Shown: in pieces, positions 4,531-12,768 of the stretch
Layout: each line of letters opens with the position of its first letter
How positions within the stretch are numbered: position 1 is the stretch's first letter
Origin: a virus
DNA: 23,203 bases
IMG/VR virus record: IMGVR_UViG_3300031718_000045
Coordinates: 1 to 23,203 of that record
Reading direction: 5' to 3' (one strand)
The notes under the pieces: generated by a model
What the model saw: only the letters and a program-made list of their open reading frames with translations
Databases searched by the model: none
What the model was told of the DNA's origin: nothing
Position numbers and translations under genes: made by a program

Positions 4531-6260
4531 TATTTCCGTCAAACGAGGAGAAGCTGGAAGAGCGTGTCCTCTGGCTAATCGACAAATGCTTCAACACGCG
4601 CGAGGATCGCAGCCGGCTGTATGACTGGCGGGAAAAGTATTATTTGTTCGGAACCGGAGGATTCCAGCCTGCGAAGTACAATCGGATTTCAAGCCATCTC
4701 GATCTGGTATCCTCATTCCTGTATGCACCAGACGGGGCCTTCTATCACATCGCCGCGGCGCGCAACTCCGAAGACGACCAGATCGCCAAAGCAATCGCGC
4801 TGCAGGATGATTTTAACGACGACTTCACCGACACCTTCCAGTCCGTTTCCATCTCTGAATGCATCGATTGGTCCCTCGTCTATGACACCATGATCGTGAA
4901 GCAGGGCTGGAACCGATCGCGAGGTAAGTTCTTTTGCGAAATAGTTCCTCCGCATAACTTCGGGGTCTATCGCGAGGACCGGAAAATGGAGGATCAAAGC
5001 TGTTTCGCCCACACGTTCTTTGTTGAGTATCAATACGCTGTCGAGGCGATGATCCGGGCTGGTCGCTATGACGATATCGCGCGTCTGAACGTCAAGCACG
5101 ATCCGGCAATCTCGCCATTCCCTCAGATGATACAGCGGATGATCATTGCCAATACCGGTGGGACCAATTTGGCGGGAAATATTATCGGTCAGGTTAACCC
5201 GGACTACGCGCCGCTCGCGACATATCAGCCAAAGTCTGAGCCACCCGGCGTGATGTGGACGGAACTCTACGCGTGGGACGACTACGCGGAGGATTACCGC
5301 ATTTTCCACGTAGTAGAGGGTATGCTGGTCGGCGACTCGAAGAAAACTATCGACCTTATAAGGGAATCCTCTGAGAAGGATTACAAAAACCTATGGGGCT
5401 ACCTCTCGACCTCCGACGACTTCAAGCCATCCGAGACGAACTACTTCATCCCGGGTGATCACCCCTTCACGATCCTCCAGCCGTTCCCGAAGTACAATTA
5501 TGTTTGGGGCGTGTCGCACCTCGATCGCCTCGTTCAGTTGCAAGAGTGGTTGCTGGAGCGGCTCGACCAGATTTCCGACATTCTCGAACAGCAAGCCTAT
5601 CCGTCCCGGTCCTTCACCGGAATGCCGGGCCTTGCCGAGGAAAAGGCCGCGGCGTTCGGGGGTGCCGATACCTGGGTTCTGGACCAAACGCCAGGAGGGA
5701 AAGTCGAGGAACACAGACCCAACATGCCGGATGACATATTCCGGGACACGGACACGCTCGGAGCCTTCTTTTTGGAGGCTTCCGGGCTCACCGAATTAGT
5801 TTCCGGTAAAGGCGAGAAGGGCGTTCGATCCGGAGCGCACGCACAGCAACTTAAAAAGACCGGTTCCGGCCGGATCAAGAAAACCGCCGAACGTCTCAAG
5901 CCGTCCCTTGTGAGAATTGGAGATCTCAATCTCAAGTTGAAAATCATGCATGACAACACTGAGATCATTGACGAACACAAGCAGCACTTCCGGGCCGCCG
6001 ACATCCGCGGCGAGGTCAAAATGCGGGTAGACGGTCACGAGTACTCCCCTCTTTTCTCCGACGAAGCTGTAGAGAAGGCGACCTTGATGTTCAAGAACAA
6101 GGTCATAGGCCGCCAGTTGTTTGCCAGATTGATCCGCCCGCCGGCGATCGACAACGTGTTGCACGACGCGGCCAAGATTGACCGGGCGGAGGCCGCTCAG
6201 GCCGCGCTGATCCAGAAGCATCCGGAGTTGGCTCAGCAGTCGAAAGGTGCTAAGAAATGA
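4527..6260 (+). CDS. Portal protein
   Basis: The portal dodecamer forms the DNA entry channel at one vertex of the head and docks the terminase. The 577-residue product matches the size and look of podovirus head-tail connector proteins. It has an N-terminal helical region (LEERVLWLIDKCFNTREDR, a Tyr/Trp-rich YDWREKYYLFGTGG), a central alpha/beta region, the LLERLDQISDILEQQAYPS stem-like helix at about 346-364, a TELVSGKGEKGVRSGAHAQQL segment near 423-443, and a charged C-terminal helix ending in a Lys-rich tail. The call rests on these features, on the size and on the position between terminase and scaffold/capsid genes; there is no single catalytic motif to check. AAAGG precedes the ATG and the start overlaps the preceding stop. 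Confidence 0.85.
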   Translation: MIFPSNEEKLEERVLWLIDKCFNTREDRSRLYDWREKYYLFGTGGFQPAKYNRISSHLDLVSSFLYAPDGAFYHIAAARNSEDDQIAKAIALQDDFNDDFTDTFQSVSISECIDWSLVYDTMIVKQGWNRSRGKFFCEIVPPHNFGVYREDRKMEDQSCFAHTFFVEYQYAVEAMIRAGRYDDIARLNVKHDPAISPFPQMIQRMIIANTGGTNLAGNIIGQVNPDYAPLATYQPKSEPPGVMWTELYAWDDYAEDYRIFHVVEGMLVGDSKKTIDLIRESSEKDYKNLWGYLSTSDDFKPSETNYFIPGDHPFTILQPFPKYNYVWGVSHLDRLVQLQEWLLERLDQISDILEQQAYPSRSFTGMPGLAEEKAAAFGGADTWVLDQTPGGKVEEHRPNMPDDIFRDTDTLGAFFLEASGLTELVSGKGEKGVRSGAHAQQLKKTGSGRIKKTAERLKPSLVRIGDLNLKLKIMHDNTEIIDEHKQHFRAADIRGEVKMRVDGHEYSPLFSDEAVEKATLMFKNKVIGRQLFARLIRPPAIDNVLHDAAKIDRAEAAQAALIQKHPELAQQSKGAKK

Positions 6261-7445: not shown

Positions 7446-7621
7446 TGACGCTATTCTGGGACAAGACGGGACCGCTGGTTGCTTACAGCGCCGGCGTGTT
7501 GCGCATCGAAGACCTGAATCCCGAACAGAAGATGAAGTGGAGCATGAGCCGCTGGGAACTCTTCAAGTTGGGCTTGAAGTGCATTCAATCTGCTTCAATG
7601 AACGAGAAACCCAATGCCTGA
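7445..7621 (+). CDS. 58-residue hypothetical protein
   Basis: This short gene is easily missed. ATG 7445 overlaps the preceding TGA (TGATG), an AAGGGG lies upstream, and its end overlaps the start of the scaffold-like gene by eight bases. The product starts MTLFWDKTGPLVAYSAG, a beta-like stretch, and continues into a helical Trp/Lys/Leu-rich part (LNPEQKMKWSMSRWELFKLGLK). There is no known domain. The codon pattern and the tight overlaps on both sides argue that it is real. Confidence 0.6.
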   Translation: MTLFWDKTGPLVAYSAGVLRIEDLNPEQKMKWSMSRWELFKLGLKCIQSASMNEKPNA

Positions 7622-8240
7622 TCCCGCCGCGCCTCAGGCTCCACAGCCTCCGGCATCACAGCCCGCCAGGGCGCAGCCGCTCCCGCCGAACCTCCCGCCG
7701 ATGGAGATGGTTCGCCTAGCGAACATGATGCACGCGCTAGCGCACAATCCGCAGACGCGCGAACTCATCGCCGAGGCCGCCAATCGGGTTGATCCGCAGT
7801 TTGCCGGCAAGGCATTCCAGGACGTGGCGCTAAACAAGCGCTTCAAGCAGCTCGAAGACAAAATCACTCAGAAGGAACTCGACAAGCAGATCGAGGTGGC
7901 TGTCAAGAACCAGCAGCTCCAGCGCAAGTCTCTGGAGCAAGCCGGCCGCACCAAGGAGGAAATCGAGGACATCGAGAAGCTGATGAACGCGCGCGGCTAC
8001 CACTCCTATGCTGACGCCGCGATCCTCTACGATGCCGAGAAGCCTCCCGTCCTGCCGAAGTTCGAGGCGAATAGCGCGACGTGGGAGTTCCCCACCGTCA
8101 CCAATCGCGATGGCTCTGCCTCAGTCCCCTTCAAGGACTTTCAAAAAGACTCGAAAACGGCAGCATTCAACGCCGCTTATCGGGTGATCGACGAGTTCAA
8201 GCTGAACACCCTGCCGCGCGGATTCTCCAGGCCATCATGA
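7614..8240 (+). CDS. Scaffold-like head assembly protein
   Basis: The 208-residue product sits immediately before the capsid region and has the look of a phage scaffold: a Pro/Ala/Gln-rich disordered N-terminus (residues 1-30), a long helical, charged stretch (about 65-125, including KRFKQLEDKITQKELDKQIEVAVKNQ-type heptads and a TKEEIEDIEKLM helix), and a compact C-terminal part with aromatic residues. Scaffold proteins guide capsid shell assembly and then leave the head. No protease motif is seen, so maturation may be protease-independent. It is called from position and shape, not from a conserved motif. The Gln-rich coiled coil would also suit a minor structural protein. Confidence 0.6.
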   Translation: MPDPAAPQAPQPPASQPARAQPLPPNLPPMEMVRLANMMHALAHNPQTRELIAEAANRVDPQFAGKAFQDVALNKRFKQLEDKITQKELDKQIEVAVKNQQLQRKSLEQAGRTKEEIEDIEKLMNARGYHSYADAAILYDAEKPPVLPKFEANSATWEFPTVTNRDGSASVPFKDFQKDSKTAAFNAAYRVIDEFKLNTLPRGFSRPS

Positions 8241-8761
8241 AGAGAGCAGCCAAGAGCGCATTGAGAGCACTTGAAAGAATGGCAAATCATCGAACGAGAC
8301 CACGTATTTCATGTCCGCAATGTGGGAAGGAATTTGCGCAGAAAAGACGCGAAGGTCCGACTAGAAACAATTCAGACGGCACCAATCGCCTGCAGCAATT
8401 TTGCTCGCGCGCATGCGCCAACCAGGCGCGGTCCAGAGTATGGCTCGACAAACACGGATATCGGCTGCTGGCTTCTGGGAAAAAGGGTGGATACCAGCAA
8501 CCCGAACATCGTGCGGTGATGGAGACCGTTCTCGGTCGTCCCCTAGCGAAGCATGAAACCGTCCACCACAAGAATGGAATCCGGCACGACAACCGGCCGG
8601 AGAATCTAGAACTTTGGTCCTCTCGACACGGACGCGGCCAGCGGATTGAGGACCGTATCGCTGATGCGAAAGCGCTCTTGGCCGAGCATGGGTACATGGT
8701 GATCGACACCGGAGGCGAGTTCAGTGGGCTTGAAAAAGCCATACTTAGCCTACCTTCATAA
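8237..8761 (+). CDS. HNH endonuclease (free-standing, homing type)
   Basis: The 174-residue protein has an N-terminal zinc-finger-like cluster (CPQCG, Cys 26 and 29; then CSRAC, Cys 56 and 60) and an HNH domain (HRAVMETVLGRPLAKHETVHHKNG, His 110-111, Asn 113, then DNRPENLELW with Asn 119 and Asn 123). This is the HNH family typical of free-standing phage homing endonucleases, which cut DNA to spread their own gene. It is inserted between the scaffold-like and capsid genes. Its ATG overlaps the scaffold stop (ATGA); an internal ATG at 8279 is an alternative. The 5' half is more A/T-rich than its neighbours, a sign of separate origin. The frame is open upstream to 8081. Confidence 0.85.
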   Translation: MKRAAKSALRALERMANHRTRPRISCPQCGKEFAQKRREGPTRNNSDGTNRLQQFCSRACANQARSRVWLDKHGYRLLASGKKGGYQQPEHRAVMETVLGRPLAKHETVHHKNGIRHDNRPENLELWSSRHGRGQRIEDRIADAKALLAEHGYMVIDTGGEFSGLEKAILSLPS

Positions 8762-8776: not shown

Positions 8777-8863
8777 CCGTAAGTCATTGATAGGAGGCGA
8801 CAATTCCCCAGTACGGACAGGGAATCGTTCCGGCCCAGGGCCCCATTGCTGCCGAACTTACGG
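8777..8863 (+). promoter_or_regulatory. Inverted repeat enclosing the capsid start site
   Basis: CCGTAAGT (8777-8784) and ACTTACGG (8856-8863) are perfect 8-base complements. They enclose the Shine-Dalgarno (8792-8797) and the proposed ATT start (8803). Inside, ATTCCC (8803-8808) can pair with GGGAAT (8820-8825), which would put the start codon in a hairpin. Short complements arise by chance, so this is only suggestive of a translation-control leader. Confidence 0.3.
8792..8797 (+). promoter_or_regulatory. Shine-Dalgarno deciding the capsid start
   Basis: AGGAGG is the ideal anti-16S complement and lies five bases before the ATT at 8803. No ATG, GTG or TTG in the capsid frame follows it until 8884, which is 86 bases away. 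This is the main evidence for an ATT start. Confidence 0.7.
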
Positions 8864-9819
8864 CAGTAGTAAGGCGAGCATTCATGCCTCGTGTCTACGT
8901 GCAGATTTGGAAGGCGGCGCCGCTGATGGCGTGCCTGCTTTCCTCCGCGCAGACTGCGACCGGCGGCCTTTCTCCGATCACCGCGCCCATTCAGGGCAAC
9001 CCCATGGTGGCCGGCCAGTGGGTCGATTACTCGGGCGCCTTCCAGCAGCCTGGAACCACTCCCGGCATTCAGAACGCAGAGTTCAACCTCAAAGCATTCT
9101 GCACTCCGGTTCCGTTCCTTGGTTTTGAGGGGCTAGTTCAGGTTGATTACTCGATTGTGCCGCTGATCGACGCGCGCATGAACGACGCAACCAACGTCAC
9201 GATCGATGCCTTCGCAACAACGCTCTACAACAATGTCGCGAATACCATGCAGATGGTTGGTCTGCCGGCCGCGATTGACGACGGCACCTTCGCTGCGACC
9301 TACGGCGGCATTCCCCGGTCGACCAACCAGTTCTGGAAATCGATCTACGTCCACAACGCCGGCAACACGCTGCCGACGCGCAACCTGATCATGCAGTATG
9401 TGGGGCAGGTGACGAAGACCACCGGCGAAATGCCAACGATCGGCATCTGCGGGTTCGGTACCTGGACAATGCTGGGCCAGGATTTCATCCCGCAGGAACG
9501 CTACAACATCAACCCGACTGATCGCCTTGAGGCCTCGGCTGGTTTCATCGGCCACTCGTCCTTTCAGGCGCTCGATATCGCAGGCATCCCCGTCTATGCC
9601 GACCCGTACTGCCCCGAGGGAGTACTCTACCTCATCAACACAAACTACCTCACTCTCTTTTTACACGAGCGCGCAGCTTTTACATTTACTGGATTTGAAA
9701 GCACTCTCCCCAACAATCAGTTCGGGTGGCTCTCAGCCATCCTATCCTTGCTCGAACTCGTAGACGTCAAGCCTAAAGCGCATGGCAAGTTCGACGGCCT
9801 ACAATTCCTGCCGATCTAA
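8803..9819 (+). CDS. Major capsid protein (ATT start proposed)
   Basis: This is the head shell protein, placed after the scaffold-like gene. The 338-residue product (ATT start) begins PQYGQGIVPAQGPIAAEL, then a helix, then VQIWKAAPLM. The body has repeated QGNP, GTTPG and aromatic segments and a C-terminal GKFDGLQFLPI, and is a normal length for this capsid type. The frame is closed by a TAG at 8791-8793 and contains no standard start until ATG 8884. Starting at 8884 gives 311 residues and cuts a helix that continues the upstream frame. ATT 8803 has AGGAGG five bases before it. ATG 8884 has a weak AAGG nine bases before it and remains possible. Confidence 0.85.
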   Translation: MPQYGQGIVPAQGPIAAELTAVVRRAFMPRVYVQIWKAAPLMACLLSSAQTATGGLSPITAPIQGNPMVAGQWVDYSGAFQQPGTTPGIQNAEFNLKAFCTPVPFLGFEGLVQVDYSIVPLIDARMNDATNVTIDAFATTLYNNVANTMQMVGLPAAIDDGTFAATYGGIPRSTNQFWKSIYVHNAGNTLPTRNLIMQYVGQVTKTTGEMPTIGICGFGTWTMLGQDFIPQERYNINPTDRLEASAGFIGHSSFQALDIAGIPVYADPYCPEGVLYLINTNYLTLFLHERAAFTFTGFESTLPNNQFGWLSAILSLLELVDVKPKAHGKFDGLQFLPI

Positions 9820-11817: not shown

Positions 11818-12768
11818 GTGCAATTGCAGGACTATGTCAACGACGTCCAAGAACTGATCCACGACGTCTCGCAGTCCATCTGGTCTCTCCCGCGAGTTGT
11901 CTCGCGCATTAACCAGGCGCGGCTCTACACCTCCATGGACATGAAGTGCGTCCGGTCCCTGGTCACCGGCGTTCAACTCATGCCCGGGGTCGAACTCTAC
12001 GATATCGGGATTGACAACGACGAGTTAGGCACGCCGGGCGTAATTCCCTTCACGTCAACCGTTCAGTCGACGGGCACCGTATGCGGGGCTAACGTGACCG
12101 CTGGCGGGTCTGGCTATCCGGCCGGAACTGTCCCGGTGACGTTCGCTGCACCTCCCGCAGGCGGTACGCAGGCGTTAGGCTTCGGCACTGCCGCGGGCGG
12201 CGCGGTGACTTCAATTACGATGACGCAGTGGGGGCAAAACTACGCCACCAACCAGGTAGCGGTCACGATCGGTGGTGGCGGCACGGGGGCCACGGCGACC
12301 GCCGTCGTGATGCTGGGCGTGCTCTACCCGCTGTCGATCACCTATATCTTCAACGGCATCAGGACGACGCTGCGATATCTCCCGTTTGGCCTGTTCCAGG
12401 CTTACGCGCGCATCCTCGGCGTGCAGTTCCTCTCAACGCCAGGTGTCTGGACCTACGTTCCCGAGAGCAACCTCATTTACGTCCAGCCCATGCCGAACAT
12501 CACGTATCTCTCGGAATGGGACTGCGTCTTTATGGCGCAGCCGCTTGTGAATAACTCGGATTTCGACTCGCAAGTGATCGATCCGTGGGCCAGGGCGGCG
12601 CAATACATGGCCGCGTCGCAGTTGCTCCTGAAAACACGGTCTTTCGGGGAGTCGCAGGAGTACTGGGGTCTCTACGAACGGATGATCCCAAAAATCGTCA
12701 CCGGCATGGGGGATGTGAGAATCCCCAACGTCTATAACCGCAACTTCCAGAGGCTTGTTGCCCGCTAA
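11818..12768 (+). CDS. Tail adaptor protein with a beta-repeat insertion
   Basis: The adaptor ring joins the portal to the tail nozzle in podoviruses. The 316-residue product (GTG start, SD at 11806) opens with a helix pair (QLQDYVNDVQELIHDVSQSIW, then RVVSRINQARLYTSMDMKC), typical of adaptors. A later part has aromatic-rich strands (GVWTYVPESNLIYVQPMP) and a C-terminal helical segment (WARAAQYMAASQLLLKTRSFG). Residues about 80-166 form a Gly-rich beta-repeat insert (NVTAGGSGYPAG, NYATNQVAVTIGGGGTGATA), unlike the rest. Removing it would leave a typical adaptor of about 230 residues. The stop TAA overlaps the nozzle ATG (TAATG). Confidence 0.72.
   Translation: MQLQDYVNDVQELIHDVSQSIWSLPRVVSRINQARLYTSMDMKCVRSLVTGVQLMPGVELYDIGIDNDELGTPGVIPFTSTVQSTGTVCGANVTAGGSGYPAGTVPVTFAAPPAGGTQALGFGTAAGGAVTSITMTQWGQNYATNQVAVTIGGGGTGATATAVVMLGVLYPLSITYIFNGIRTTLRYLPFGLFQAYARILGVQFLSTPGVWTYVPESNLIYVQPMPNITYLSEWDCVFMAQPLVNNSDFDSQVIDPWARAAQYMAASQLLLKTRSFGESQEYWGLYERMIPKIVTGMGDVRIPNVYNRNFQRLVAR

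Follow-up and report, generated by a model that had tools for sequence, protein, structure and literature searches.

Organization of the capsid locus

The window, the whole 23,203-base stretch of an IMG/VR virus record that was analysed, carries on its + strand a major capsid protein gene of 338 codons plus stop (8803..9819). The preceding genes on the same strand are one in the position of a scaffold gene (7614..8240), for which no PHROG or Pfam match was found, and, between it and the capsid gene, a free-standing HNH endonuclease gene (8279..8761; phrog_20891, E 1.2e-23; Pfam HNH_3). In relatives without the HNH gene, the scaffold-position gene is the direct predecessor of the capsid gene, and in many relatives, e.g. 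L109 and L103, tblastn places its end ~13–30 nt before the major capsid protein (MCP) gene. For the capsid protein, phrog_9953 (major head protein) is matched at E 5.4e-27, and two spring-water phages have annotated major capsid proteins with 51% identity to it. AF2 gave a poor model from 17 sequences (pLDDT 37) and a better one, with a mean pLDDT of 77.8, from 74. Foldseek comparison of the latter model with HK97-fold capsids returned 7f38_A as the best match (E 4.4e-11) and HK97 itself (2fs3_A) at E 3.0e-9; profile and fold together place the protein among the HK97-fold major capsid proteins.

Upstream, the capsid frame is closed by an in-frame TAG (8791..8793, + strand) overlapping a Shine-Dalgarno (SD) sequence, AGGAGG (8792..8797, + strand), from which the five-base spacer CGACA (8798–8802) leads to ATT (8803..8805, + strand), the candidate initiation codon. 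Only GAG, GCG, ACA and this ATT separate the in-frame stop from the conserved codon 2, and ATT 8803 is the sole listed start-like codon with an SD among the first 110 codons. The first in-frame NTG is the ATG at 8884..8886 (+ strand), which is codon 28. The first-pass annotation, which had proposed from these elements that the gene starts at ATT, located the stop, the SD, the five-base spacing and the ATT correctly. Its further statement that the next standard start, ATG 8884, would cut a helix also holds for the AF2 model, in which residue 28 falls inside a predicted helix spanning residues 14–38.

The start column and the coding boundary in relatives

Viral contigs were scanned by tblastn and by profile, which yielded relatives of 35–90% identity, and the start codon of each was read before the conserved N-terminal motif with the codon itself left free. 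Among 185 non-redundant members, the homologous codon is ATG in 129, ATT in 21, GTG in 16, TTG in 15 and ATC in 4, and no other codon occurs. A column restricted to these five codons carries the signature of an initiation codon, as an internal hydrophobic residue would add GTC, CTG, ATA and the like. The codon at 8803 thus departs from NTG at a conserved gene start, and it does so in company, as relatives have ATT or ATC in the same column. The residues that follow are strongly conserved, P2 being nearly invariant and G5, G7 and P10 invariant among 82 proteins. A more distant clade, recognized by the motif MPIGGG, has ATG in every member. Some ATT/ATC members came from a DNA pattern that demanded GGAG at the same spacing, 24 of whose 25 matches are capsid genes; in a pattern-free set of 118 members, from which the MPIGGG clade, the pattern-found loci and the window were removed, ATT/ATC is used by 10.

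Coding constraint sets in at the ATT/ATC codon. In pairwise comparisons of ATT/ATC members, codons 2–27 differ 934, 545 and 2310 times at codon positions 1, 2 and 3, the codons affected being synonymous in 1746 cases and replacing in 917, and codons 28–60 behave alike. Upstream, at positions -39 to -13, the corresponding counts are 948, 886 and 903, i.e. there is no codon phase. These data bear directly on the reading in which ATG 8884 is the start and an untranslated leader takes up codons 1–27. That ATG is the first canonical in-frame start; however, it has no SD, codons 2–27 are under coding constraint within the ATT/ATC members themselves, helix 14–38 would be cut, and the ATG, GTG and TTG relatives begin at the 8803 column, as emerged from the alignment of homologous capsid proteins that the first-pass annotation had put forward as a check. 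ATG 8884 is therefore rejected as the start, and we regard this reading as extremely improbable. Homologues, coding constraint, SD geometry and fold instead lend strong support to an ATT start of the major capsid gene, and on this comparative sequence evidence translation almost certainly begins at AUU 8803.

A start farther upstream, joined to the capsid frame by stop read-through, an HNH-associated intron or translational bypassing, might be suggested by the HNH gene just upstream and by the TAG in frame. Of the 24 ATT/ATC relatives that have GGAGG at spacing 5, 18 have an in-frame stop at -12. Over the relatives as a whole, in-frame stops fall at varying places, and the frame of the upstream gene is not conserved with respect to the capsid frame, on which ground read-through fusion with the upstream gene was rejected. 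As to an intron or recoding at the start of the capsid gene, the window gave no Rfam match and the upstream stretch no codon phase, and an adjacent HNH gene is absent from 16 of 24 ATT/ATC loci. The chance that the true start lies upstream is accordingly very small.

Relatives in bacterial genomes were sought twice: a first scan was negative, and a second, profile-based scan gave nine loci in metagenome-assembled genomes (MAGs) of mixed taxa. These are probably phage contigs, for which reason no host is assigned. Two peculiarities among the relatives may be recorded. In an ATC-start relative (L020/L110), the capsid frame is broken after codon 93, by either an assembly error or a real frameshift, and in L005/L006 the tblastn capsid match runs ~400 bp past the gene, after position 6014, suggesting that part of a second capsid copy follows.

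Recurrence on the capsid tree

A tree of 134 capsid proteins was computed with the first 20 residues left out; it is a quick tree in which single long-branch placements are unsure. Distributing ATT/ATC and NTG starts on it requires 18 changes, at least 12 of which are forced by well-supported branches. Interchange on this scale rules out a sequencing error or one decayed gene as the origin of the pattern. For the window itself, an error of sequencing or assembly, or decay of the gene, could be entertained on the ground that it is a single metagenomic contig, but its frame is intact and there are 25 non-redundant ATT/ATC members from many metagenomes, which leaves this reading scarcely any probability. 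The AUU/AUC start is, rather than an error, a recurrent and largely overlooked way to begin the most heavily made virus protein. The window's own sister, L109 (90% identical; L004 is the same contig), combines ATG with a weak SD and lacks an HNH gene.

Coupling of the start codon to SD strength

Outside the MPIGGG clade, GGAGG occurs within 14 nt of the start in 24 of 25 ATT/ATC genes, always at spacing 5, in 13 of 15 TTG genes, in 11 of 16 GTG genes and in 16 of 77 ATG genes. Many ATT/ATC loci were found through the pattern requiring GGAG at 5-nt spacing, which counts against reading these figures as SD compensation; in the pattern-free set, GGAGG at spacing 5 is nonetheless present in 10 of 10 ATT/ATC genes, against GGAGG in 16 of 77 ATG genes (Fisher p = 1.3e-6). 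Independent pairs on the tree, taken over all rows, associate ATT/ATC with GGAGG by 8.7 to 0.4 (median p 0.008). The pattern-free tree pairs number only 5–6 and do not reach significance, the informative ones all being as expected (3.4 to 0, and 4.5 to 0 once the window is added). In the clade uniting the window with L043, a strong SD accompanies none of 12 ATG starts and 29 of 33 non-ATG starts. Among the relatives, weak codons are thus coupled to stronger SDs, as expected of SD-compensated starts, and the strong SD ahead of a non-canonical codon is a trait of the infC/sigR type. The wider context (A)TAGGAGGCTAAN-ATT-CC, mostly not imposed by the search pattern, is found again at capsid genes whose proteins share only 35% identity. 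Around the start, the mRNA is predicted to be no more and no less accessible in ATT/ATC genes than in ATG genes (p = 0.48), and structure therefore does not explain the choice of codon. Judged from sequence, there seem to be two ways to one output level, a weak codon behind a strong SD and AUG behind a weak one.

HNH endonuclease genes at the scaffold-MCP junction

At 18 loci, the end of an HNH gene lies no more than 150 nt from the start of the capsid gene, and their distribution over the capsid tree requires 16 or more changes; L117, L118, L119, L127, L128, L131, L160, L023, L029, L030 and others are among the relatives with an HNH gene at this junction. The scaffold-MCP junction is a homing hotspot for HNH genes. 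The first-pass annotation had suggested that the HNH gene altered the leader of the capsid gene, and a stronger form of this idea is that the mobile element brought the leader, SD and ATT together, upon insertion. An adjacent upstream HNH gene is indeed commoner at ATT/ATC loci (8 of 24) than elsewhere (10 of 108; p = 0.005), and the window differs from its sister L109 jointly in HNH gene, strong SD and ATT. However, tree-aware tests of the association give median p values of 0.07–0.22, most ATT/ATC loci (16 of 24) have no adjacent HNH gene, and some ATG and GTG loci do have one. The HNH gene is not a general cause of ATT/ATC starts, and delivery of the leader by the element is improbable; the suggestion of an altered leader is weakly supported by the raw enrichment, and the window phage may be a case in which the HNH gene reshaped the leader.

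Specificity to the capsid gene and occurrence elsewhere

Within the contigs of the family, AUU/AUC starts are nearly specific to the capsid gene. Among 62 portal homologues, 53 start with ATG, seven with GTG and none with ATT or ATC, and the gene downstream of the capsid gene has ATG in 36 of 36 cases. Only one other convincing ATT start was found among strong-SD ORFs in these contigs, that of an FmdB-like zinc-ribbon gene (L153:1849-2319), where ATT stands behind AGGAGG-N5 and the homologous column holds ATG in 49, GTG in four and TTG in three.

Over all viral contigs, AGGAGGCTAAMATYCC occurs 17 times, and in 16 of these cases a long ORF begins there, seven of them in the capsid family and nine in other genes. 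The other genes opening with AGGAGGCTAAM-ATT/ATC-CC encode a gp14-type head closure (neck) protein (L232), a baseplate wedge protein (L233), tail fibres (L234, L235/L236), a portal-like ORF (L239), members of phrog_6566 (L230) and phrog_644 (L238), and a further ORF (L231). The L230 product aligns from profile position 1, and two cultured phages have annotated starts, GTG and ATG, at the position of its ATT. In L239, the portal-like ORF with the ATT start (11861-12475) has a match to the portal profile that begins only at position 187 and is possibly part of a split portal gene. A sample of 119 viral-contig sites of AGGAGGCTAAANTNCC has at ORF starts 62 ATG, three TTG, two ATT, one GTG and one ATC, and none of the 25 sites with other NTN codons is at an ORF start; the counts for AGGAGGCTAAANTNCC and AGGAGGCTAAMATYCC are low, and a CC following the codon is required by either pattern.

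Relation to known non-canonical starts

Non-AUG starts with strong SDs are already known from infC, pcnB, sigR and cvfC1. The infC gene starts with ATT in E. coli and ATC in Streptomyces, i.e. with the same codon class as the capsid genes, a class repressed by IF3, and is autoregulated by IF3 (PMC5472188). It is, however, an autoregulated cellular regulator, whereas the present gene is a phage structural gene whose start codon often changes between relatives. E. coli pcnB also has an AUU start, one described in the title of the corresponding paper as translationally limiting (Binns and Masters 2002, in PMC13009471), but pcnB is a cellular gene of low expression and the capsid a high-output protein. 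In S. aureus, strong SD pairing in front of a non-canonical codon is the arrangement at infC, at cvfC1 (AUU) and at ccpN (AUA), and reporters in poor medium gave such starts ~10% of the AUG level (PMC13009471). The conserved non-canonical starts of cvfC1 and ccpN are preceded by an extended, very strong SD as in the capsid gene (PMC13009471); they are conserved in bacteria, whereas the phage capsid AUU/AUC has been recurrently gained and lost. Streptomyces sigR combines a conserved AGGAGGTG ribosome-binding site with a GTC start and is IF3-repressed (PMC5472188), a pairing of strong site and non-canonical codon like that of the capsid gene, but with GTC/GTT in place of ATT/ATC and conserved in one genus.

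It has also been established that weaker GUG and UUG starts are accompanied by stronger SDs (Belinky et al. 2017, PMC5622118). In that survey a switch from AUG to AUU was seen once among 61,358 ancestral AUG starts (PMC5622118), whereas ATT/ATC makes up ~8% of the capsid family outside the MPIGGG clade. What is unusual about the capsid AUU/AUC start is the type of gene, its recurrence and its breadth. A search of open-access literature, outside which most subscription papers lie, turned up no account of a phage capsid gene starting with AUU or AUC, recurrently or otherwise, and this negative is weak evidence of novelty.

A putative mechanism of initiation at AUU

In the most plausible scheme, AGGAGG, a maximal SD at a fixed 5-nt spacing that overlaps the stop codon, would dock the 30S subunit, and the near-cognate AUU in the P site would then be accepted by fMet-tRNA, the maximal SD at its fixed spacing compensating for the poor codon. 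The nascent capsid chain would begin with fMet-Pro and presumably be trimmed to Pro. Over the family, the start codon appears to shift among AUG, GUG, UUG, AUU and AUC while SD strength shifts in the opposite direction, so that the site would behave as a two-component setting of expression level. A decoding solution of another kind would be a tRNA with an anticodon for AUU/AUC or an initiator-like tRNA; none was found in the window or in 18 ATT/ATC contigs, many of which are fragments. The only tRNAs in those 18 contigs are two of tRNA-Gln (TTG), one each in the contigs, themselves related, that carry L123 and L136 (L226, L228), and one of tRNA-Phe (GAA), in the L133 contig (L227).

SD-compensated initiation at AUU 8803 with two-component level setting is the best account of the comparative data, and we hold it with considerable confidence; initiation at AUU in vivo, its level and selection for an output level are what we infer from those data. 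Two points sit uneasily with compensation. The ~10% of AUG obtained from AUU reporters in S. aureus (PMC13009471) is odd for a high-output gene, and compensation alone does not account for weak codons persisting in the capsid gene of all genes.

A regulatory device, as the first-pass annotation had envisaged, would take the form of an IF3-repressed switch in which capsid synthesis rises late, when IF3 activity drops relative to ribosomes. IF3 represses starts other than AUG, GUG and UUG, and it autoregulates infC and also represses sigR (PMC5472188); the near-confinement of AUU/AUC to the capsid gene in family contigs is likewise in keeping with such a switch. Sister phages nevertheless use AUG, GUG or UUG, and switching is frequent, which a required switch would not easily tolerate. 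The IF3 switch is thus a less likely explanation, albeit one with more to recommend it than delivery of the leader by the HNH element, and SD compensation, or an expression set-point, fits the data at least as well as a regulatory device.

Implications for phage gene starts

AUU and AUC starts have so far been regarded as oddities found in a handful of cellular genes. The repeated origin of SD-tied AUU/AUC starts within one capsid family offers a natural experiment on the trade-off between start codon and SD, and the many matched capsid leaders of this family are usable for tests of IF3 discrimination. Gene callers that admit only ATG, GTG and TTG would clip or mis-call the N-termini of such virion proteins, and annotations of environmental phages consequently need revisiting. 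With close to, but somewhat short of, an even chance in our estimation, AUU/AUC may prove to be a regular, hidden start class of phage virion genes: behind a maximal SD at 5-nt spacing, it would be about as frequent as GUG or UUG, would be set by selection on the dosage of capsid and tail proteins, possibly with timing by IF3, and would be truncated or missed by NTG-only callers.
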